DNA of 64,000 bases from contig NZ_QKTW01000014.1 of NCBI RefSeq assembly GCF_003236175.1, positions 62,001 to 126,000 on the forward strand. Direction: 5' to 3'. Made by a program: the position numbers and the translations under genes. Of the stretch, positions 1-34,873 are shown in pieces. The DNA is from Taibaiella soli (GTDB lineage: Bacteria > Bacteroidota > Bacteroidia > Chitinophagales > Chitinophagaceae). The notes under the pieces are model-generated. The model did no database searches and was not told the DNA's origin. It saw only the letters and a program-made list of their open reading frames with translations. Position 1 is the first letter of the stretch. Each line of letters opens with the position of its first letter.

Positions 1-2
1 TG

Positions 3-227
3 GATGAGCACAATCTGAATGAGTTTATGGGTTTGCTGAATGAAGCAGAACGTAATCTTTCCGGCAGGATATTCATTGAAAAAAAACTCGCTTCGATGTT
101 GATAGAAGTAGTTCCAATGCTTTTGAGTATTTCCGAAAGTTATACGGGAAAAGAGCGGAAGGCAATTGACCAGGCTGTGAAAGACATTAGCGAGAAAATA
201 ACTGCAATTTTCTACTGCGAAGAATAA
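3..227 (+). CDS. C-terminal fragment of an unknown protein
   Basis: The reading frame is open to the left edge of the window and ends at a TAA, so this is probably the 3' end of a longer gene rather than a 66-residue gene starting at the internal ATG at 27. The visible part is predicted helical, rich in Glu, Lys and Leu, with no membrane segment or recognisable motif. It converges on the tRNA-Asn terminator that follows. I do not recognise the family. Confidence 0.45.
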   Translation, partial: DEHNLNEFMGLLNEAERNLSGRIFIEKKLASMLIEVVPMLLSISESYTGKERKAIDQAVKDISEKITAIFYCEE

Positions 228-240
228 AATCGCGACAAAT

Positions 241-270
241 AAAAAAGGTTCCGATTGCTCGAAACCTTTT
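241..270 (-). terminator. Rho-independent terminator of the first tRNA-Asn
   Basis: On the minus strand two 12-nt arms (AAAAGGTTTCGA and TCGGAACCTTTT, one T-G wobble) enclose a GCAA tetraloop and are followed by T residues, directly after the tRNA 3' end. The same hairpin recurs after the second tRNA-Asn at 2237-2266. Confidence 0.85.
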
Positions 271-275
271 CTCTG

Positions 276-349
276 CGCTCCCTTCAGGACTTGAACCTGA
301 GACCCTCTGATTAACAGTCAGATGCTCTAACCAACTGAGCTAAGGAAGC
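276..349 (-). tRNA. tRNA-Asn (GTT)
   Basis: A complete 74-nt cloverleaf can be folded on the minus strand. It has a 7-bp acceptor stem (GCTTCCT with AGGGAGC), a D-arm with AGTTGGTTA, an anticodon stem TCTGA/TCAGA holding the loop CTGTTAA with anticodon GTT, a 5-nt variable loop, a T-arm with TTCAAGT, and discriminator G. CCA is not encoded. It is nearly identical to the tRNA at 2273-2346. The gene for a GT-C glycosyltransferase lies between the two copies on the same strand. Confidence 0.96.
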
Positions 350-371
350 TTTTTTTCCTTTTTGAGGACTG

Positions 372-401
372 CAAAGATACAAATGGTTTTATTTGAAGCA
401 A
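372..401 (-). promoter_or_regulatory. Promoter of the first tRNA-Asn
   Basis: On the minus strand a -33 TTG is followed after 19 nt by TATCTTTG, matching the Bacteroidota sigma-A consensus TTG-N19-TAnnTTTG. The -7 box lies 22 nt upstream of the mature tRNA 5' end. Confidence 0.8.
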
Positions 402-497
402 GAGGGCGACAAAAAATCTTTGCAGAAAAATTATGGATTGATCGAACCCGCGGATTTTGAAATTTAAGCTATTGTAATTCCATTATTCAATGCTGGT

Positions 498-2066
498 TCA
501 ATCTTGTCTTTTTTGTGAAAATATCTCGCCCCACGCTTGTCCGTGTTCGGTACGAAAAATTAAATGAAAGCTGCTGTCTGATTTTATTTGTGCGAATCTG
601 TCATCCGGCTCAATATTATCAAAAAGGGCATAGTCTGTTGTGGAGTCAATATTCCAGTCGGCATGCTTAAATATTTTCCCAGATTTTAGCATCCCGGCTT
701 CTGGTTTAACCATACTTACTCGTTGCTGGAATGAACCAAGTCCGATGTTCTTTTCGTAGGCCTGTTTATCCTCTAAATAATGTATCAGGTCTTGCTGCAC
801 TTTCATCGCATTAAAGGCTTGTAAGTTGCAGTCACCAACTCCTGTATTCCATTGGTACGCTTTAAAAATGTTCAGCCCAAGCAGAATGGCTATCGGAATG
901 TACAAATAAAGGGAACTTCTGGAAATCAGCCCGTCTAGCCATATGGCGATATATACAACTACCCAGACTAAAACTGCTATTAAATATCGATGGGTAATAA
1001 AATTGAAAACAGTAAAAGCTATGTACAGCAGGAAAAATCCGCCCCCGAGTAACAGGAATTTCCTGGCTTTGTTTTGATCTGACAACAACCGCGAAGATGC
1101 TATGAATGCCGCAATGAATGACAATGCTAAAATCGCAACATATAATTTACCATCGCCAAATCCTGCATGACCAGTTACCAATCGCCATATAACAGTCGCG
1201 GGTAACAAATACACAAGCCATAACCATTGTTTTTTCCAAATGGCAATTCCAACGGAAAGCAGCAGTAAAAGCCAAAACACACGGTACATCTTATCCACAA
1301 CGAACAAGTCATTCATGCTGTCTACAACCTTTCCAAAAATGGCGCCCCATGAATAATCGATCAGCCCAGTATGTCCTGGATACAAAAACCAGCCATAAGT
1401 ATGATGTTGATAAAGGAAGAAAGCAACAATGATTGCGCCGGCACCGCCCACGCAACCTGTTTTTTTCCACCGTTCAGGCCAGGAAATAGATTTGTTGAAA
1501 AAAGAAAGCAAAACATCTGCGCCCAATACAATTCCCATTACCAAACCACTTTCCTTGGTAAGAAACAGGCAACTCAGGAAGACAAATGACCAGAAATATT
1601 TGCCGGCTGAATAGAAATAGATGGCAGCGAAAGCGAGCAATCCTACAAGTATTTCAGGCAACAACATTGCAGATTGTACAAAAAATGTCACTTGCGCGGC
1701 GAGCAAAATGGTGCTAACGATTGCAACACGTTTATTGAACAGCCGAAGACAGGCGATATAGACGATGCTAAGTTGTGCGAGTGAAACGAAAAGCGCAAAA
1801 CAGTGCTTCGCCACCATTGTGTTGCCAAATATCTTCAACCACATTGCAGCGGAAGCATAAAAGAATAACGGATGGCCGCGGGATGCCTCTACATCAATTG
1901 AGCCAGGTAATAAGGTAGGGCCATGATGGTACATCAGGTTTACTGCTGGTGCGTATGACCAGGCTTCGTCCCAGTAATGCGGGTAGAAAAGGTGTGGAAC
2001 TTTTAGAACGACAAATACAATCAACAGCACAAGCAGCACTGCATAATTGTTCAAAAATGTTCGCAT
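498..2066 (-). CDS. GT-C family membrane glycosyltransferase (ArnT/PMT-like)
   Basis: A 522-residue polytopic membrane protein with about ten hydrophobic segments. After the first membrane helix (residues 9-24) it carries the acidic motif YWDEAWSY (Asp33, Glu34), typical of the catalytic first loop of GT-C enzymes, then RGHPLFF (63-69) and TKES (170-173), both seen in the ArnT/GT39-like group. Such enzymes move a sugar from a polyprenyl-phosphate donor to lipid or protein acceptors on the outer face of the inner membrane; the donor and acceptor here cannot be told from sequence. The gene stands alone between two tRNA-Asn units. No good promoter is visible directly upstream, so read-through from the upstream tRNA unit is possible. 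Confidence 0.8.
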   Translation of the reverse strand: MRTFLNNYAVLLVLLIVFVVLKVPHLFYPHYWDEAWSYAPAVNLMYHHGPTLLPGSIDVEASRGHPLFFYASAAMWLKIFGNTMVAKHCFALFVSLAQLSIVYIACLRLFNKRVAIVSTILLAAQVTFFVQSAMLLPEILVGLLAFAAIYFYSAGKYFWSFVFLSCLFLTKESGLVMGIVLGADVLLSFFNKSISWPERWKKTGCVGGAGAIIVAFFLYQHHTYGWFLYPGHTGLIDYSWGAIFGKVVDSMNDLFVVDKMYRVFWLLLLLSVGIAIWKKQWLWLVYLLPATVIWRLVTGHAGFGDGKLYVAILALSFIAAFIASSRLLSDQNKARKFLLLGGGFFLLYIAFTVFNFITHRYLIAVLVWVVVYIAIWLDGLISRSSLYLYIPIAILLGLNIFKAYQWNTGVGDCNLQAFNAMKVQQDLIHYLEDKQAYEKNIGLGSFQQRVSMVKPEAGMLKSGKIFKHADWNIDSTTDYALFDNIEPDDRFAQIKSDSSFHLIFRTEHGQAWGEIFSQKRQD

Positions 2067-2272: not shown

Positions 2273-2346
2273 CGCTCCCTTCAGGACTTGAACCTGAGAC
2301 CCTCTGATTAACAGTCAGATGCTCTAACCAACTGAGCTAAGGAAGC
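2273..2346 (-). tRNA. tRNA-Asn (GTT), second copy
   Basis: A 74-nt cloverleaf with the same acceptor, D, anticodon (GTT) and T arms as the copy at 276-349. The similarity extends into the terminator on one side and the promoter core on the other, so the whole transcription unit is duplicated. Confidence 0.96.
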
Positions 2347-28472: not shown

Positions 28473-29417
28473 ATGAAAATAGCAAAGGAAGTCAGGATAG
28501 GATTAGTCGTGGCGATCGCCATACTTGTATTTTTTACCGGTTTTTACTTTTTGAAAGGGTCAAATCTCTTCTCAGGGGAAAATAATTTCTATGCCGATTA
28601 TGATAATGTGCAAGGATTGACACCGTCTGCAGTGGTGCAGATCAAAGGTGTGAATGTGGGCAAAGTGACCGATATTAACCTGGATAGTAAGGTCCGCGTT
28701 ACATTGGCCATCGATAAAAAAGTGCACATCCCGGTAGGTACCAAAGCTGAATTGATTTCGCTGGATCTTCTGGGTACAAAGGCAATCCGACTGGATCTGA
28801 CTAACAGCTCCGAATATGCTAAGAACGGTGATGTATTGCCAGCTGCGGTAGAATCGGGAATCATCGATAATATTTCTTCCGAAATTTCACCGCTGGTAAC
28901 AGATGTAAGAGCAACAGTTGCTATGCTGGATTCTGTATTGACCGGTATCAATGGCATTGTAAACAAACAGACGCAGGAAAATATTGCAGGCAGCATTGCT
29001 TCGCTCAACGAAACAATGCATCATTTTTCCAGTCTTTCTAACCGTTTAGATAAAGAAAGCGAGCAAATTGCGGGTATTGTGGACAATGCAAATAGCATTA
29101 CTACCAATCTGAAAGACAATAACGAGCATATTTCCAACATTCTGAAGAATGCAGAAGCCACTACCGATCAGCTTTCCAAAGCACCGATCGAACAAACGGT
29201 GAAGAACCTGCAATCTACTTCTGATCAGCTGAATACTTTGATGGCTAAGATCAATAATGGTGAAGGTTCAGCGGGTATGCTGGTCAATGATAAGCAACTT
29301 TACAACGAGTTGACGCAGGCACTTGCCAAAATGAAAGAACTGATGGCAGATCTGAAATCACACCCTTCCCGCTATATAAACGTTTCGGTGTTCGGTAAAA
29401 AACAAAAAGATAAATAA
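28473..29417 (+). CDS. MCE/MlaD family lipid-transport protein
   Basis: 314 residues from the ATG at 28473. MKIAKEVRIGLVVAIAILVFFTGFYFLKG is a signal-anchor helix. The MCE core follows (about 36-115: YADYDNVQGLTPSAVVQIKGVNVGKV, then VPVGTKAELISLDLLGTKAIRLDL). The rest is a long helical/coiled region. MlaD-type proteins form hexameric rings that pass phospholipids between inner and outer membrane. The OstA-like gene follows by 8 bp, a pairing known in Bacteroidota. The permease and ATPase partners are not in this window. Confidence 0.88.
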   Translation: MKIAKEVRIGLVVAIAILVFFTGFYFLKGSNLFSGENNFYADYDNVQGLTPSAVVQIKGVNVGKVTDINLDSKVRVTLAIDKKVHIPVGTKAELISLDLLGTKAIRLDLTNSSEYAKNGDVLPAAVESGIIDNISSEISPLVTDVRATVAMLDSVLTGINGIVNKQTQENIAGSIASLNETMHHFSSLSNRLDKESEQIAGIVDNANSITTNLKDNNEHISNILKNAEATTDQLSKAPIEQTVKNLQSTSDQLNTLMAKINNGEGSAGMLVNDKQLYNELTQALAKMKELMADLKSHPSRYINVSVFGKKQKDK

Positions 29418-29425
29418 GCGTTTAA

Positions 29426-31174
29426 TTGATTGTGGTGCGTGTAGTTTTAAAAAAATCTCTATTTCGAAAAATAATTTTGTCATGCATCCTCGGGTGCATG
29501 ATATTTTTTGTTGCTACAGCCCAGAAGCAACAAAAGCAGCAACAGCAGCAACAAAATCAGGATACGTCCAAACAGGTAAACGTAATCATCAAATATGCTC
29601 AGATAGGCGGTGGCTTTGTAAAAGGCGATACGCAGATGAATCGTCTGGTGGGTAACGTGCAGCTGGAACAAAACGGAACACTGATGTTTTGCGATAGTGC
29701 GTTCATTAATCTCAATGCCAATAACGTAGAGGCTTTCGGCGATGTAAAAATCGTGCAGCCCGATGGCACGCAGGTGATGAGTGATTATCTGCGCTATGTA
29801 GGTAATACGAAACAGGCCTATCTGAAAGGCAATGTGAGTCTCACGGACGGCAAAAGCAATCTCTGGTGTGAAGAACTGTATTATGATGTTGGTACTAAAA
29901 TCGGTCGCTACGAAAATGGTGGTACGCTGCAGACTGAGTCTACAACAGTGACCAGTAATGCAGGAACTTACAACGTAACAACAAAAGACGCGCGTTTTTC
30001 CGGTGAAGTTTATGTAACCGATCCGCCGTATGAGATAACATCAGATGAATTGGGCTATAACACCCAGACCAAGCTGGTTGTGTTTTATGCGCCGGCCATT
30101 GTCACGAGCGACAAGTCTATTTTGCATACCGGCAATGGCAGTACCTGGGATGGCAAGAGCGAAATTGCGCATTTCGTGGTGCGTTCATCGATTCTCAACG
30201 AAGGGCAATATATTGAAGCCGATAAGATTGATTACAACCATAAGACAGGCTTTGGTCATGCCGAAGGCAAAGTAATCAGCATTGACACGGCTCAGAAAAT
30301 AACGTTGTATTGCGGCATTGCAGACTACAATGAAAAGGCAAGAAAGCTGAAAGCTTATGTGAAGCCGGTAATGAAGAAAATGAATGGCAATGACAGCTTG
30401 TTTATCCGTGCTGATACATTTTTCTCAGCGCCTGTTCCGAAGCCAGTTGACACGCTGAAGATGAGCGTGAGCAAAGCCAAAGATTCGCTGACTGTTGTTA
30501 AAAAAGGAAAGTCGAAAAACAAAAAAGGACTCGCAGTATTGGCTGCGACACCGCAGACAGTGAACGATACCACGAACACCACGCCAGCGGCAGATTCTAC
30601 AGCACCGAGATATTTTATTGGCTATAACCACGTTATTATTTTCTCTGATTCGATGCAAGGGCGGTGCGATAGTATTGTATACTCGATGGCCGATTCTACG
30701 CTGCGGATGATTAAAGATCCGGTAGCATGGTTCCGGCAAAGTCAGGTGACGGGCGACACAATTCTCGCTTATCTGGAAAATAACAAAGTAAAGAAAGTCT
30801 ACATTCCGAATAACGCTTTGTTGATTCAACAATCAGGACCGGCAAAAGCACAGATGTTTGATCAGGTGCAGGGTAAAACGCTTAGTGTGTTTTTTGCAAA
30901 TGATAAGATTGACCATGCCGTTGTATTTCCAAATGCGGAGTGTATTTATTTCTCTAAAGATGAGGTAGGGGCGTATCTCGGTGTAGTGCAGGGACAATCT
31001 GAACGGATGCGGATTACTTTCAAAAATGAGGAAGTAAACCATGTTTATTTCGAGCAGGATCCGAAACATACGATGTCACCGCTGACGAAAGTCAATATTT
31101 CCGAAACACGTCTGAGCCGTTTTCAATGGCTGGATGCCAAACGTCCGAAAAGCCTGCTGGAGCTGTTTGAATAA
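29426..31174 (+). CDS. OstA-like (LptA/LptD N-terminal type) envelope protein
   Basis: 582 residues, with no ATG at the expected start. The signal peptide (VLKKSLFRKIILSCILGCMIFFVATAQ) needs a TTG at 29426 or GTG at 29432/29435. A Gln-rich tract follows (about 33-46). About 50-270 is the OstA beta-jellyroll (GDTQMNRLVGNVQLEQNGTLMFCDSA, AFGDVKI, YLKGNVSLTDG), found in LptA and in the N-terminus of LptD, which bind lipopolysaccharide. There is a Ser/Lys-rich insert near 350-390 and a second OstA-like part to the end. A role in LPS export is inferred from the fold. It is coupled to the MCE gene. Confidence 0.8.
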   Translation: MIVVRVVLKKSLFRKIILSCILGCMIFFVATAQKQQKQQQQQQNQDTSKQVNVIIKYAQIGGGFVKGDTQMNRLVGNVQLEQNGTLMFCDSAFINLNANNVEAFGDVKIVQPDGTQVMSDYLRYVGNTKQAYLKGNVSLTDGKSNLWCEELYYDVGTKIGRYENGGTLQTESTTVTSNAGTYNVTTKDARFSGEVYVTDPPYEITSDELGYNTQTKLVVFYAPAIVTSDKSILHTGNGSTWDGKSEIAHFVVRSSILNEGQYIEADKIDYNHKTGFGHAEGKVISIDTAQKITLYCGIADYNEKARKLKAYVKPVMKKMNGNDSLFIRADTFFSAPVPKPVDTLKMSVSKAKDSLTVVKKGKSKNKKGLAVLAATPQTVNDTTNTTPAADSTAPRYFIGYNHVIIFSDSMQGRCDSIVYSMADSTLRMIKDPVAWFRQSQVTGDTILAYLENNKVKKVYIPNNALLIQQSGPAKAQMFDQVQGKTLSVFFANDKIDHAVVFPNAECIYFSKDEVGAYLGVVQGQSERMRITFKNEEVNHVYFEQDPKHTMSPLTKVNISETRLSRFQWLDAKRPKSLLELFE

Positions 31175-31192
31175 GGGAAAATTCAAAAAAAG

Positions 31193-31223
31193 TTTGTTTC
31201 GAAAGGAAAACGCTCTACTTTTG
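31193..31223 (+). promoter_or_regulatory. Strong consensus promoter of a short transcription unit
   Basis: TTTG (31193-31196), a 19-nt spacer and TACTTTTG (31216-31223) followed by C: the best-matching Bacteroidota promoter in the window. No long gene follows before the terminator at 31341. Confidence 0.85.
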
Positions 31224-31244
31224 CAGCTCAATTTAGAAACAGGA

Positions 31245-31313
31245 ATGTCTCGAAAGTTATATAAACGTATGTGTCAACTTACTAAACAGGTAGGCAGATA
31301 TGGTATTGTATAA
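31245..31313 (+). CDS. Probable 22-residue basic microprotein
   Basis: The only open frame in a transcript bounded by the promoter at 31193-31223 and the terminator at 31341-31372. ATG at 31245 lies about 15 nt after the expected transcription start, a usual leader length here. The product begins MSRKLYKRMCQLTKQ and ends VGRYGIV: 22 residues, three Arg and three Lys, no acidic residue, one Cys. It has no signal peptide. A small ribosome- or RNA-binding peptide is conceivable, or the RNA may act as a non-coding RNA. I do not recognise it. Confidence 0.5.
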   Translation: MSRKLYKRMCQLTKQVGRYGIV

Positions 31314-31340
31314 CCTCAGATATACAAAAGATACCCAAAA

Positions 31341-31372
31341 GCGGCTTACCGGACTCGGTGAGCCGCTTTTTT
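31341..31372 (+). terminator. Terminator of the microprotein unit
   Basis: GCGGCTTACCG (31341-31351) and CGGTGAGCCGC (31356-31366) pair with one T-G wobble around GACT, preceded by AAAA and followed by TTTTTT. Confidence 0.9.
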
Positions 31373-31423
31373 GTTGCTAAATACACCCGGGATATTGTAT
31401 ACATTTTAAACTAAATATTGATA

Positions 31424-32686
31424 ATGAGTACGCTTAGCCGTCTGGCCGAAACACTGATCGGATCTGAAATTGTTCGTCTTGGTAACGAGATCAACGCAAG
31501 AATTGCTAAAGGAGAAAAAATCTACAATTATACCATTGGCGATTTTGACCCTGAAATTTTCCCAATTCCGCAGGAACTTGAAAATGGCATTATAGAAGCG
31601 TACCAAAAACGTTATACCAATTATCCTCCCGGTGATGGTGTACTGGAATTGCGTGAGGCGGTTAGTGAATTTATCAACATGCAGGAAGGTATTCAATATG
31701 CGTCCAACGAAGTATTGATTGCGAGTGGTGGTCGTCCGCTGATTTACTCTCTGTTCCGCACGATTGTAGATCCGGGAGACAAGGTAATCTATGCGGTTCC
31801 ATCCTGGAACAACAATCACTATGTACACATGAACGGTGCTGAACATTGCGTGATTGAAGCGTTGCCGGAAAACAACTTCATGCCGCGCGCTGCGGACATC
31901 GCACCGCACATCAAAGGTGCTACGCTGATTTGTCTTTGTACGCCGCAAAACCCTACTGGTACTACATTAGACAAAGCCGAGCTGGAGAAAATATGTGATC
32001 TGGTACTCGAAGAAAATAAATCGCGTGCAGAAGGCGAAAAGAAACTGTACGTGATGTTTGATCAGATGTATTTCACACTTACTTACGGCGATACCAAACA
32101 TTACAATCCGGTAAGTCTGCGTCCTGAAATGAAGGCGTATACGATATTGATTGATGGTATTTCTAAAGCACTCGCAGCAACTGGTTTGCGTGTAGGTTGG
32201 GCATTAGGTCCGGTAAAAGTGATTGCTAAAATGAAAGCTTTGCTGAGTCACATCGGTGCATGGGCGCCAATGGCAGAACAAAAAGCTACAGCAAAATATC
32301 TGAAACAGGACAGCGCACTTGAAAGCTACCTTACGCATTTTAAAGCCGAACTGGAAGAAAGACTCTGGAGCATTTACAATGGTTTTATTGCACTGAAAGA
32401 AAAAGGATTTTGTGTAGATGCAGTAGCACCGCAAGCAGCGATTTACCTCACCATCAAACTGGATCTGGCGGGTAAAACAACCGAAGCGGGCACGCAATTG
32501 ACGAACCAATCTGATGTAACGGACTACATTCTGAGCGAAGCAAAACTTGCTGTAGTTCCGTTTTACGCATTCGGCGCGGATAAACAATCACCTTGGTATC
32601 GTCTGAGCATCGGTACGTGTAAAAAAGAAGAGATCAGCGAAATGCTGGGCAAATTGGAAGCGGCACTTTCAAAGCTAAACCCCTAG
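31424..32686 (+). CDS. PLP-dependent aminotransferase, class I/II (aspartate aminotransferase-like)
   Basis: 420 residues from the ATG at 31424; a TTG two codons earlier is less likely. The fold-type I landmarks are NPTG with Asn176, Asp213 in MFDQMYF, PLP-binding Lys248 in DGISKALAATGLRVGW, and Arg256. The N-terminal segment YNYTIGDFDPEIFPIP is of the aspartate-aminotransferase superfamily, but the substrate cannot be fixed. An aspartate kinase gene follows, which would fit a role in aspartate-family amino-acid metabolism. Confidence 0.85.
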   Translation: MSTLSRLAETLIGSEIVRLGNEINARIAKGEKIYNYTIGDFDPEIFPIPQELENGIIEAYQKRYTNYPPGDGVLELREAVSEFINMQEGIQYASNEVLIASGGRPLIYSLFRTIVDPGDKVIYAVPSWNNNHYVHMNGAEHCVIEALPENNFMPRAADIAPHIKGATLICLCTPQNPTGTTLDKAELEKICDLVLEENKSRAEGEKKLYVMFDQMYFTLTYGDTKHYNPVSLRPEMKAYTILIDGISKALAATGLRVGWALGPVKVIAKMKALLSHIGAWAPMAEQKATAKYLKQDSALESYLTHFKAELEERLWSIYNGFIALKEKGFCVDAVAPQAAIYLTIKLDLAGKTTEAGTQLTNQSDVTDYILSEAKLAVVPFYAFGADKQSPWYRLSIGTCKKEEISEMLGKLEAALSKLNP

Positions 32687-32768
32687 CCCCTGAAGGGGAA
32701 TCTCAGCGCGACTATCACCCGGTTGCATTTTTGACTTTTGACTTTTGACTTTTAAATTTTGACTTTAT
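32679..32768 (+). repeat. Stop-associated CCCC-GAA-GGGG repeat (copy 2) and GACTTTT words
   Basis: The repeat overlaps the stop codon of the aminotransferase gene (AACCCCTAG, then CCCCTGAAGGGG and AATCTCAGCGCGA). From 32729 it runs into tandem TTTTGAC words up to the aspartate kinase start. Compare 15999-16030 and 60502-60550. Confidence 0.7.
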
Positions 32769-32772
32769 AAAC

Positions 32773-34038
32773 ATGCAAGTGTACAAATTCGGCGGAGCGT
32801 CGATAGCGACTCCGGAACGTATGGCGGCATTATTGCCGATTATTCAAGAGGCTACCCAGCCAATCATTATGGTCGTATCTGCATTAGGCAAGACCACCAA
32901 CGCACTCGAAGACATTGTGTCTGCTGCCTGTAAGGGCGACAAGGAAAAGGCACATGATATGGCGCGTAAGTTGGAGCAGATTCACCTTGATTATGCAAAA
33001 ACACTGCTGAACACCGAAAACTTTGCAAAAGCCGAAAAAGCGCTCAATGTATTTTTTACAGAGCTGCAATGGGCAATTGATGACGCTGAAGCTGCGAAAT
33101 ACGATTACTCTTACGACCAGATCGTTTGTATGGGAGAATTACTTTCTACGCGCATTTTCGGCTTTTACCTCCAACAAGAAGGCCTCAATTTTGAGTGGGC
33201 TGATGTGCGCGATGTAGTTCGTACAGACGAGACTTTCCGTGATGCACGTGTGGATTGGAACTATTCTGAAACGCAGGCGAAACAAAAACTCGGCACACTT
33301 TTATCGCAAGGTAAAAGCATCGTAACACAAGGTTTTATTGGCGCTACTGCCGATAATGCTTCCGTAACACTGGGCCGTGAAGGTTCTGATTATACCGCAG
33401 CGATGCTGGCCGCGATGCTGGGTGCTACCGGGGTTACCATCTGGAAAGATGTAGAAGGTCTTCAGAACGCTGATCCGAAGCTGTTTCCGAACACGGTTAA
33501 AATTGAGGCGATCACTTACCACGAGGTGATTGAAATGGCCTATTATGGTGCACAGGTTATTCACCCGAAAACCATTAAGCCGCTGCAGAATAACGGCATT
33601 CCTTTGTACGTGCGCTGCTTCCTTAATAAGGATCTGAAAGGAACGGTAATTCAGAATGAAGTCAACAGCATTTTTTATCCGCCGCTGATTGTTTTGAAAC
33701 AGAAACAAATCTTGCTGCAGGTAACAACGCGTGATTTCTCGTTCGTCACAGAAGACAACCTGAGTAACCTCTACAGCATCTTCCATAAACTGAAGATTAA
33801 AGTAAACCTGATTCAGAATGCTGCGATCAGCTTCGTAGCTTGTATTGATCACAAAGAAGATCAGATTCAGGCGTTGGTTACTGAGCTCGAAAAAGACTAT
33901 AAAGTATTCCGCAACGAAGATGTAAGCCTGCTTACAATTCGTCACTACACGCCGGAAATTCTTTTTGAAATGACCAAAGGCAAATACACGCTGCTGGAAC
34001 AAAAAACAAGACAGACGGTACAGGTGGTGATGAAATAA
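32773..34038 (+). CDS. lysC: Aspartate kinase
   Basis: 421 residues. It starts with MQVYKFGGAS (kinase motif with Lys5), has VTQGFIGAT and LGREGSDYTAAMLAA in the amino-acid kinase domain, and about 310-400 forms the regulatory ACT region. It phosphorylates aspartate at the head of lysine, threonine, methionine and diaminopimelate synthesis. It is monofunctional, with no homoserine dehydrogenase domain. The YYGAQVIHPKTIKPL segment is typical. The ATG is preceded only by repeats. Confidence 0.92.
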   Translation: MQVYKFGGASIATPERMAALLPIIQEATQPIIMVVSALGKTTNALEDIVSAACKGDKEKAHDMARKLEQIHLDYAKTLLNTENFAKAEKALNVFFTELQWAIDDAEAAKYDYSYDQIVCMGELLSTRIFGFYLQQEGLNFEWADVRDVVRTDETFRDARVDWNYSETQAKQKLGTLLSQGKSIVTQGFIGATADNASVTLGREGSDYTAAMLAAMLGATGVTIWKDVEGLQNADPKLFPNTVKIEAITYHEVIEMAYYGAQVIHPKTIKPLQNNGIPLYVRCFLNKDLKGTVIQNEVNSIFYPPLIVLKQKQILLQVTTRDFSFVTEDNLSNLYSIFHKLKIKVNLIQNAAISFVACIDHKEDQIQALVTELEKDYKVFRNEDVSLLTIRHYTPEILFEMTKGKYTLLEQKTRQTVQVVMK

Positions 34039-34040
34039 TC

Positions 34041-34440
34041 ATCTAAGTTGACAATTGACAGTGGACAGTTGACAATTGCCATGTTTGTCGTGTCGAGGAT
34101 ACGAGACATCTCACGTGATGTGATTTATTTAATTAATTATGTCCTTGTATGAAGCAATTTGCACGAAATATCAATAAAGAAGTACTGTTGAGCGAAGTCT
34201 CTGACTTCGTTCGAGTGGCCGCGGTCTCCTGACCGCAGCATAATAAAACGATACAATTAAAGGTGCTTGCATCGACAAACAGAAAGAGACTGCTCAACGC
34301 AGTCTCTTTCTGTTTAAAAATATTACTACGGTCAGGAGACCGTTTCCGTCAGAACGAAGTCAGAGACTTCGCTCAGCTGTGAGGTCGCGCCCAGTATTTT
34401 AAAAATAAGTGTAACTGTCAATTGTCAACTGTCAATTGAA
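34041..34440 (+). repeat. Nested 400-bp inverted structure of intergenic repeats
   Basis: This 406-bp gap holds no credible gene. Its outer arms are TTGACAATTGACAG words (34045-34078) and their complement (34410-34438). Inside lies a 51-nt element at 34191-34241 (AGCGAAGTCTCTGACTTCG, then CGGTCTCCTGACCG), repeated in inverted orientation at 34329-34376. Each half of that element is itself palindromic. A terminator sits in the centre (34277-34320). At 34088-34116 there is a further partial palindrome with TGTCGAGGATACGAGACA. A related copy is at 16085-16138. Confidence 0.75.
34277..34320 (+). terminator. Terminator in the gap after lysC
   Basis: Perfect 17-bp arms (34277-34293 and 34299-34315; core AGAAAGAGACTGC) with loop TCAAC. 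It is about 240 bp after the lysC stop and can serve either strand, including the minus-strand lipoprotein gene. Confidence 0.75.
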
Positions 34441-34444
34441 TTTA

Positions 34445-34873
34445 TCAGATCTTGGTAAATGTCAACGCGTCCGTTCCGCCATTACCGCCGCTTACATCCT
34501 CAAGTAGAATGGTAGTATTATTTGTGTTTAGAATATGCCAGTCATTATTTAATTCATCAAAAGGACTTGTGTTTCCAAAGTTAAGTTCCAGTTTCGCCTG
34601 GTCGTCGTCTGTTCCGGTTTTCCAGGTGCCATTGACTGTGCTGCCGCCGTTGGATGCTGTAGCGCTGCCGTTAGCATTAAAAGCGAATTCATAACCGGTA
34701 AAATGGTTTGTTTCGTCATTGCCGTTATCGCTGAAAAAAGAAACCTTCCAGACGCCAGCCTGTATATTGCTGTCATTACTCACGGGAGGACTAACTGTCT
34801 CATCGCCGTGACCACAGGCAGAAAGAAACAGTATAAATACGGGTAGAAAAAGGAGTTTTAGGAATCGTTTCAT
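34445..34873 (-). CDS. Small lipoprotein of unknown function
   Basis: 142 residues from the ATG at 34873, chosen because the lipoprotein signal starts there (MKRFLKLLFLPVFILFLSAC, lipobox LSAC, Cys20). The mature part, with WKVSFFSDNGNDETNHFTGYEFAFNANGSATA and GTWKTG, suggests a small lipocalin-like beta-barrel; this is only a pattern resemblance. It is Asn- and Gly-rich. It is divergent from the following barrel gene. Confidence 0.75.
   Translation of the reverse strand: MKRFLKLLFLPVFILFLSACGHGDETVSPPVSNDSNIQAGVWKVSFFSDNGNDETNHFTGYEFAFNANGSATASNGGSTVNGTWKTGTDDDQAKLELNFGNTSPFDELNNDWHILNTNNTTILLEDVSGGNGGTDALTFTKI

Follow-up and report, generated by a model that had tools for sequence, protein, structure and literature searches.

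The window analysed here, a stretch of 64,000 nucleotides of Taibaiella soli DNA, contains a compact unit of promoter, 22-codon open reading frame (ORF) and intrinsic terminator, followed on the same strand by the genes for an aminotransferase and an aspartate kinase (aspartokinase) (Table 1). An earlier note on this DNA had described the promoter, a basic ORF and a strong terminator, and sequence and fold confirm that all three are present. They also confirm its account of the peptide, which has six Arg/Lys residues (3 Lys and 3 Arg, besides 2 Tyr) and no Asp or Glu. The terminator had been placed 28 nt after the stop codon; its stem begins after 23 nt and the GC-rich part after 27 nt. Transcription of the unit probably starts near 31231.

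Table 1. Features of the leader unit and of the genes behind it, in window coordinates.
Feature	Position	Strand	Basis or detail
Promoter TTTG-N19-TACTTTTG	31193..31223	+	Sequence and pattern match; TTTG at 31193, TACTTTTG at 31216-31223
Leader ORF, 22 codons, peptide MSRKLYKRMCQLTKQVGRYGIV	31245..31313	+	ATG at 31245; stop codon 31311-31313
Putative regulatory Lys codons K4 (31254-31256) and K7 (31263-31265)	31254..31265	+	Leader alignment and fold
Predicted 1:2 (anti-antiterminator) hairpin of the RNA without a stalled ribosome	31256..31314	+	RNA folding with only the 5′ arm of the terminator made
Antiterminator strand GGTAGGC (region 2)	31289..31295	+	Complementary to GCTTACC at 31344-31350
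Inner hairpin TTGTAT...ATACAA within the antiterminator loop	31306..31327	+	Predicted fold
Intrinsic terminator	31337..31373	+	Stem 31337-31370; 5′ arm includes GCTTACC at 31344-31350
Class I/II aminotransferase (aspartate-aminotransferase-like), first controlled gene	31424..32686	+	Pfam PF00155
Aspartate kinase, second gene of the presumed operon	32773..34038	+	TIGR00657, 258 bits (cut-off 208.7)

The promoter motif, which we take to be of the Bacteroidota type, occurs once in the window in its exact TTTG-N19 form, compared with 0.45 occurrences expected by chance, and was present in 40 of 100 shuffles; with a spacer of N17-21 four matches were found and 2.37 expected. Since these counts are near chance, the promoter taken by itself does not reach significance, and its earlier description as the best in the window holds only for the exact N19 spacing. 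Judged by sequence comparison, it is conservation in relatives that places the unit beyond chance. The leader RNA has a predicted fold of -49.3 kcal/mol, compared with -27.1 kcal/mol for shuffles (z -6.26; 0 of 200 as low), which is in large part due to the terminator. With 15 pairs, the terminator stem is the longest among 10 terminator-like sites in 29000-34500.

The start codon of the aminotransferase lies 53 nt past the terminator stem. Within this gap, the best match to a separate promoter covers 7 of 10 positions, a value equalled by 81% of shuffles, while the leader promoter scores 10 of 10 by the same measure. Across 21 leaders the distance from terminator stem to start codon is 18–66 nt, which leaves little or no space for a second promoter. 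The earlier view that the promoter serves no larger gene is not borne out, given this short gap and the relatives of the unit, which precede the same aminotransferase–aspartokinase operon. The aminotransferase itself was below the cut-off of all 25 NCBIfam models among the matches listed for it. A search of the genome for a canonical LL-diaminopimelate aminotransferase gave five matches, none over the cut-off, and a dapD relative reached 295 bits, below its cut-off of 375.

A DNA search of 59 related genomes with the 251-base unit returned only the unit itself and two short fragments. One of these (L002:1501-1528), from a different genus, shares 89% identity over 28 nt with the promoter and ribosome-entry region of the window, but spans the start of another gene, whose open frame resembles ATP synthase subunit a by eye, and is likely a chance match; the other (L003) is a terminator and was set aside on reading. 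Because this search yielded no relatives of the whole unit, we sought them via the downstream aminotransferase. Relatives of this protein were found at E<=1e-60 in 33 of the 59 genomes, among them the window's own, and 30 of these loci were kept; from a genome collection the best 80 of 287 were taken; the nearest belong to Chitinophagaceae, Chitinophagales, Flavipsychrobacter and uncultured Bacteroidetes. Upstream of the aminotransferase, all 110 loci were inspected or scanned and then scored by a covariance model, R1, which was built solely from 16 aligned aminotransferase leaders (alignment A2). A leader lies directly upstream in 3 of the 30 loci from related genomes (G000, G001, G030) and in 18 of the 80 collection loci, 15 of them at 76.9–125.2 bits and three divergent ones at 34.1–41.1 bits (L095, 41.1; L097, 34.1; L107, 41.1). 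Thirteen of these 18 are part of A2 and match R1 by construction; the three divergent leaders were excluded from A2 and from the ORF set described below and retained among the 18, L035 and L037 were left out of A2 as near copies of L034 and L036, and L059, with a weak match before the aminotransferase (25.2 bits, E 0.022), was scored as leaderless.

The aligned leaders have in common a TATAA or CATAA element, a Lys-rich ORF, a GGTARGCC-like strand, a TTATGTAGCT-like strand and a terminator of the form GGCTTACC...GGTRAGCC (AGCTTACC in L057). Upstream of the ORF, a TAnnTT(T/C)G box is found in 18 of 21 aminotransferase leaders, the exceptions being the three divergent ones. The short ORF is conserved and, as the earlier note had said, of a sort that gene callers pass over. 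The records of L035 and L097 are labelled Azovibrio restrictus and Phycisphaerales; both carry a Chitinophagales-like aminotransferase, a leader and an aspartokinase, and these bins may be mislabelled.

In the 80 collection loci, aspartokinase directly follows the aminotransferase in all 18 with a leader, compared with one (L060) of the 62 leaderless loci (Fisher p 5e-17, not to be taken literally as the loci are related). The p value is 6e-13 when the three divergent leaders are scored as leaderless and 1.5e-16 after dropping four of the leaderless loci with short flanks (L083, only 53 nt upstream; L065, L080 and L111, less than 350 nt downstream). Moreover, in three further loci (L123, L136, L181) the gene directly behind the leader is aspartokinase. 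It counts against the attenuator reading proposed below that 62 of the 80 aminotransferase relatives lack such a leader.

Searching with R1 revealed a wider family. In the 394 genomes of the taxonomic family, 328 had a match at E<=0.01, a number that overstates the true leaders because weak R1 matches can be bare terminators; four weak matches in the own genome (L145, L147, L148, L150) proved to be a terminator without a suitable leader and were left out of the count. Across 295 genomes of the class, 52 matched at E<=1e-4, including 6 from the window's own family. We inspected 110 of the better family matches (the 30 best and 80 more, with the same match taken twice in L137/L169, L139/L170 and L142/L171) together with the one further good match in the own genome, a hisG leader of like architecture with a His run, MIQNLHMHHHHLIHRVSWDAIVQH (L144:1501-1651, contig C32). 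Of these 111 loci, assigned by BLAST to one reference each (those for hisG and asd being over their NCBIfam cut-offs), 56 have hisG as the next gene, 28 have asd, 22 the aminotransferase and 3 aspartokinase, with 2 left without assignment; in L161 the stretch ended before the gene, and in L177 neither a gene nor a peptide fits. His makes up 31.5% of the residues of 51 distinct hisG leaders, each with at least three, and 26 asd leaders are composed of 29.7% Lys and 14.2% Thr. In the class search, hisG is next in 20 of 28 further loci and asd in 2; our script found no ATG ORF in L243 and L257. Three leaders with a WWW run (L246, L254, L262) precede genes with like beginnings (trpE-type), and the gene after L254 fits anthranilate synthase component I best, at 414 bits, below the cut-off of 517.7. 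An NNN leader (L248) precedes asnB (840.6 bits, cut-off 499). For two leaders with MMCCMMCI (L250, L255) no target gene was assigned. Although R1 was trained on one class only, the leader codons, as read from these sequences, follow the pathway product of the next gene.

Two of these loci deserve separate mention. In L248 (positions 1-1700, minus strand) the leader MKTQTHNNNRFFALASR, with its Asn run, lies directly before asparagine synthase B and is a candidate asparagine attenuator. L255 (1500-1840) carries two tandem attenuator-like units with Met/Cys-rich leaders, MMCCMMCI followed by an M/C-rich ORF recognised by eye. Each unit has a terminator of its own, and an open frame follows at 1968; they could serve the control of sulfur amino acids.

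The window leader has the layout of a classical ribosome-mediated transcription attenuator: an intrinsic terminator lies between the ORF and the first gene, an antiterminator strand is complementary to the 5′ arm of this terminator, and a region 1:2 pairing in the predicted fold competes with the antiterminator. Between the GGTARGCC strand and the terminator arm, six of seven columns pair in all 16 aligned leaders and one in 14 of them. For 104 distinct leaders of all classes, region 2 and its own terminator arm reach a duplex score of 17.96, compared with 14.82 (sd 0.29, highest 15.8; 0 of 300 reach 17.96) for swapped arms and 11.4 for a shuffled region 2. Swaps within a class are less extreme (7, 9 and 0 of 300 reach the own value for aminotransferase, asd and hisG leaders, respectively), and by this measure the duplex is poor in a few aminotransferase leaders (lowest 9.5); both points count against the attenuator. 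In many asd leaders both strands have changed together (GGAAGG with CCTTCC). The divergent leaders L095, L097 and L107 have another terminator core (GGCTTGC), still before the aminotransferase and aspartokinase genes, and by eye L107 and L095 seem to have altered the antiterminator strand to match.

Folding of the window RNA predicts alternative structures. When no ribosome is present, the 1:2 hairpin is predicted; with the terminator made no further than its 5′ arm and a ribosome stalled at Lys4 or Lys7, the antiterminator is predicted to form, and with a ribosome at the stop codon only the terminator. A ribosome stalled at Lys14 would cover the antiterminator strand, and no antiterminator is predicted. 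In these calculations the ribosome is a crude mask of all RNA to 15 nt past the first base of the A-site codon. Against the switch, the full-length minimum-energy fold keeps the terminator in every state folded, which implies that it would depend on co-transcriptional timing. Furthermore, the 1:2 pairing is imperfect in A2, with 76% and 74% of cells paired in its two helices. In the outer helix 6 of the 15 pairs show two-sided change, in the inner helix none; the number of pairs with such changes exceeds shuffles weakly (9 versus 6.2, with 41 of 500 as high), while cells with two-sided change (20 versus 8.1) and the covariation score are above all 500 shuffles. A further point against is that the window ORF extends past region 2, while the commonest stop place is inside it.

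Which amino acid is sensed can be approached from 27 distinct leader ORFs, 24 before an aminotransferase (the window's included) and 3 before an aspartokinase. Lys is the sole residue found in all 27, and makes up 23.4% of residues in the ORF frame of the 24 aminotransferase leaders, compared with 4.7 and 7.1% in the other frames, and 27.3% in the aspartokinase leaders. Moreover, a Lys follows Tyr, His or Asn in 27 of 27 (K7 in the window; codon AAG in 19, AAA in 8), although this motif was defined after the peptides had been inspected, L181 (Asn-Lys) was matched by hand, and L124 and L125 were scored on an earlier His-Lys rather than the aligned Tyr-Lys. Structure accounts for part of this invariance, as the AA of the codon sits in a stem. 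In every leader but that of the window (26 of 27), a second Lys follows 2–5 codons later. Lys enrichment is present across the set and weak in the window peptide, which has three Lys, as many as Arg, within a range of 2–5 across leaders; its lack of acidic residues is not general either (8 Asp/Glu over 27 leaders). From the presence of Lys in every leader and from the invariant motif we infer that lysine is the signal, a reading that is weakest for the window peptide itself. Both aspartokinase and asd act on the lysine branch.

An attenuator that senses arginine, tyrosine/histidine, mixed basic residues or general translation speed instead of lysine appears unlikely. Arg makes up 11.2% of the residues of the aminotransferase leaders and is present in 25 of the 27 ORFs, K-R pairs recur, and the window peptide has as many Arg as Lys in addition to its two Tyr. 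However, Arg is missing from two leaders and Tyr from six, the residue before the invariant Lys varies, and aspartokinase and asd, as noted, belong to the lysine branch.

We therefore regard the unit at 31193-31373, with considerable confidence, as a ribosome-mediated transcription attenuator that probably senses lysine; sequence comparison gives attenuation as such good support. After a start near 31231, a ribosome would translate the leader ORF behind RNA polymerase. If Lys-tRNA were short, it would stall at K4 or K7 and cover region 1, and region 2, left free, would pair with 31344-31350 to form the antiterminator, so that the aminotransferase and aspartokinase genes would be transcribed. 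With plentiful lysine, the ribosome would reach the stop codon and cover region 2, and the terminator would form. In the absence of translation, the 1:2 hairpin would hide region 2, which again would lead to termination.

The earlier note had favoured a microprotein or an independent small RNA, and a free-standing product of this kind, unconnected to the next gene, now seems very improbable. The unit does have its own promoter, ORF and terminator, and the terminated RNA, of about 140 nt, could accumulate; a role in trans has a precedent in rnTrpL/peTrpL of Sinorhizobium meliloti, where one is reported for attenuator RNA and peptide (PMC10117765). The ORF, hairpins and terminator are nevertheless laid out as in an amino acid attenuator, and the link to aminotransferase and aspartokinase, the short gap to the gene, the antiterminator complementarity, the variation of the peptides outside the Lys positions and the existence of related leaders before his, trp, asn and asd genes all argue against it. 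A riboswitch or protein-binding leader that needs no translation would also explain a structured leader with a terminator on an amino acid gene, but is scarcely credible given the in-frame codon runs of sister leaders and the Rfam search, in which only two tRNAs reached gathering scores in the window. At a loose threshold of E 5, the stretch 31150-31450 gave six matches, all hairpin look-alikes far below these scores, and the lysine riboswitch (RF00168) was in neither set. The two tRNA genes (276-349 and 2273-2346, minus strand) have equal Rfam scores (71.8 bits) and are possibly duplicates.

The kind of switch proposed here is classical attenuation, which has long been known; we found no record of it for the aminotransferase–aspartokinase pair. 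Like the his operon attenuator of Proteobacteria, which consists of a leader peptide with a codon run, alternative hairpins and a terminator, leaders of the window type combine a leader peptide with alternative hairpins and a terminator. The nearest catalogued relative is Bacteroid-trp RNA (RF01692), a tryptophan leader of Bacteroidota that shares the short ORF with regulatory codons, the terminator and the biosynthetic gene, and from which the window leader differs in its codons and controlled genes. RF01692 did not match the window, nor 31150-31450 up to E 5; the WWW leaders score 88.5 (L262), 48.4 (L254) and 43.1 bits (L246), the first above and the others below its cut-off of 49. Eight loci (two each of hisG, asd, aspartokinase and aminotransferase leaders) matched no Rfam family at gathering score, and among the leaders tested the tryptophan ones alone matched a leader family.

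The authors of a 2010 survey stated that they knew of demonstrated leader-peptide systems in Proteobacteria and Actinobacteria only, leaving out one atypical case, and they added Firmicutes (PMC2965389). Strong clues for leader-peptide attenuation upstream of amino acid biosynthesis operons are described for Flavobacterium psychrophilum in a passage of PMC9723704 that does not name the genes. In S. meliloti, SEP5, a short ORF in the 5′ UTR of a gene called aspartate dehydrogenase, has six Thr and three Lys codons and is suggested to encode a leader peptide in the aspartate pathway (PMC10117765). This alphaproteobacterial peptide has no shown relation to our leaders and, as described there, is closer to the asd leaders than to that of the window. 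Among the matches listed in full-text searches, subscription papers aside and as judged by titles and the openings of abstracts, none was recognisably about a lysine-codon attenuator of aspartokinase or about the present leader family beyond Bacteroid-trp, which does not establish priority.

Overall, an unexplained mini-gene becomes a predicted element that would control lysine-branch genes in bacteria of the Chitinophagaceae type, and R1 reveals related leaders in many Bacteroidia genomes. The lysine riboswitch does this job elsewhere. We lean, by a modest degree, towards the broader view that a lysine-codon attenuator of the aspartokinase operon does it here, and that it is one setting of a single Bacteroidia scaffold, in which the hairpins stayed and the codons were exchanged to suit His, Trp, Asn, Lys/Thr and perhaps Met/Cys. 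Short basic ORFs before biosynthetic genes in Bacteroidota may thus be leader peptides rather than microproteins.
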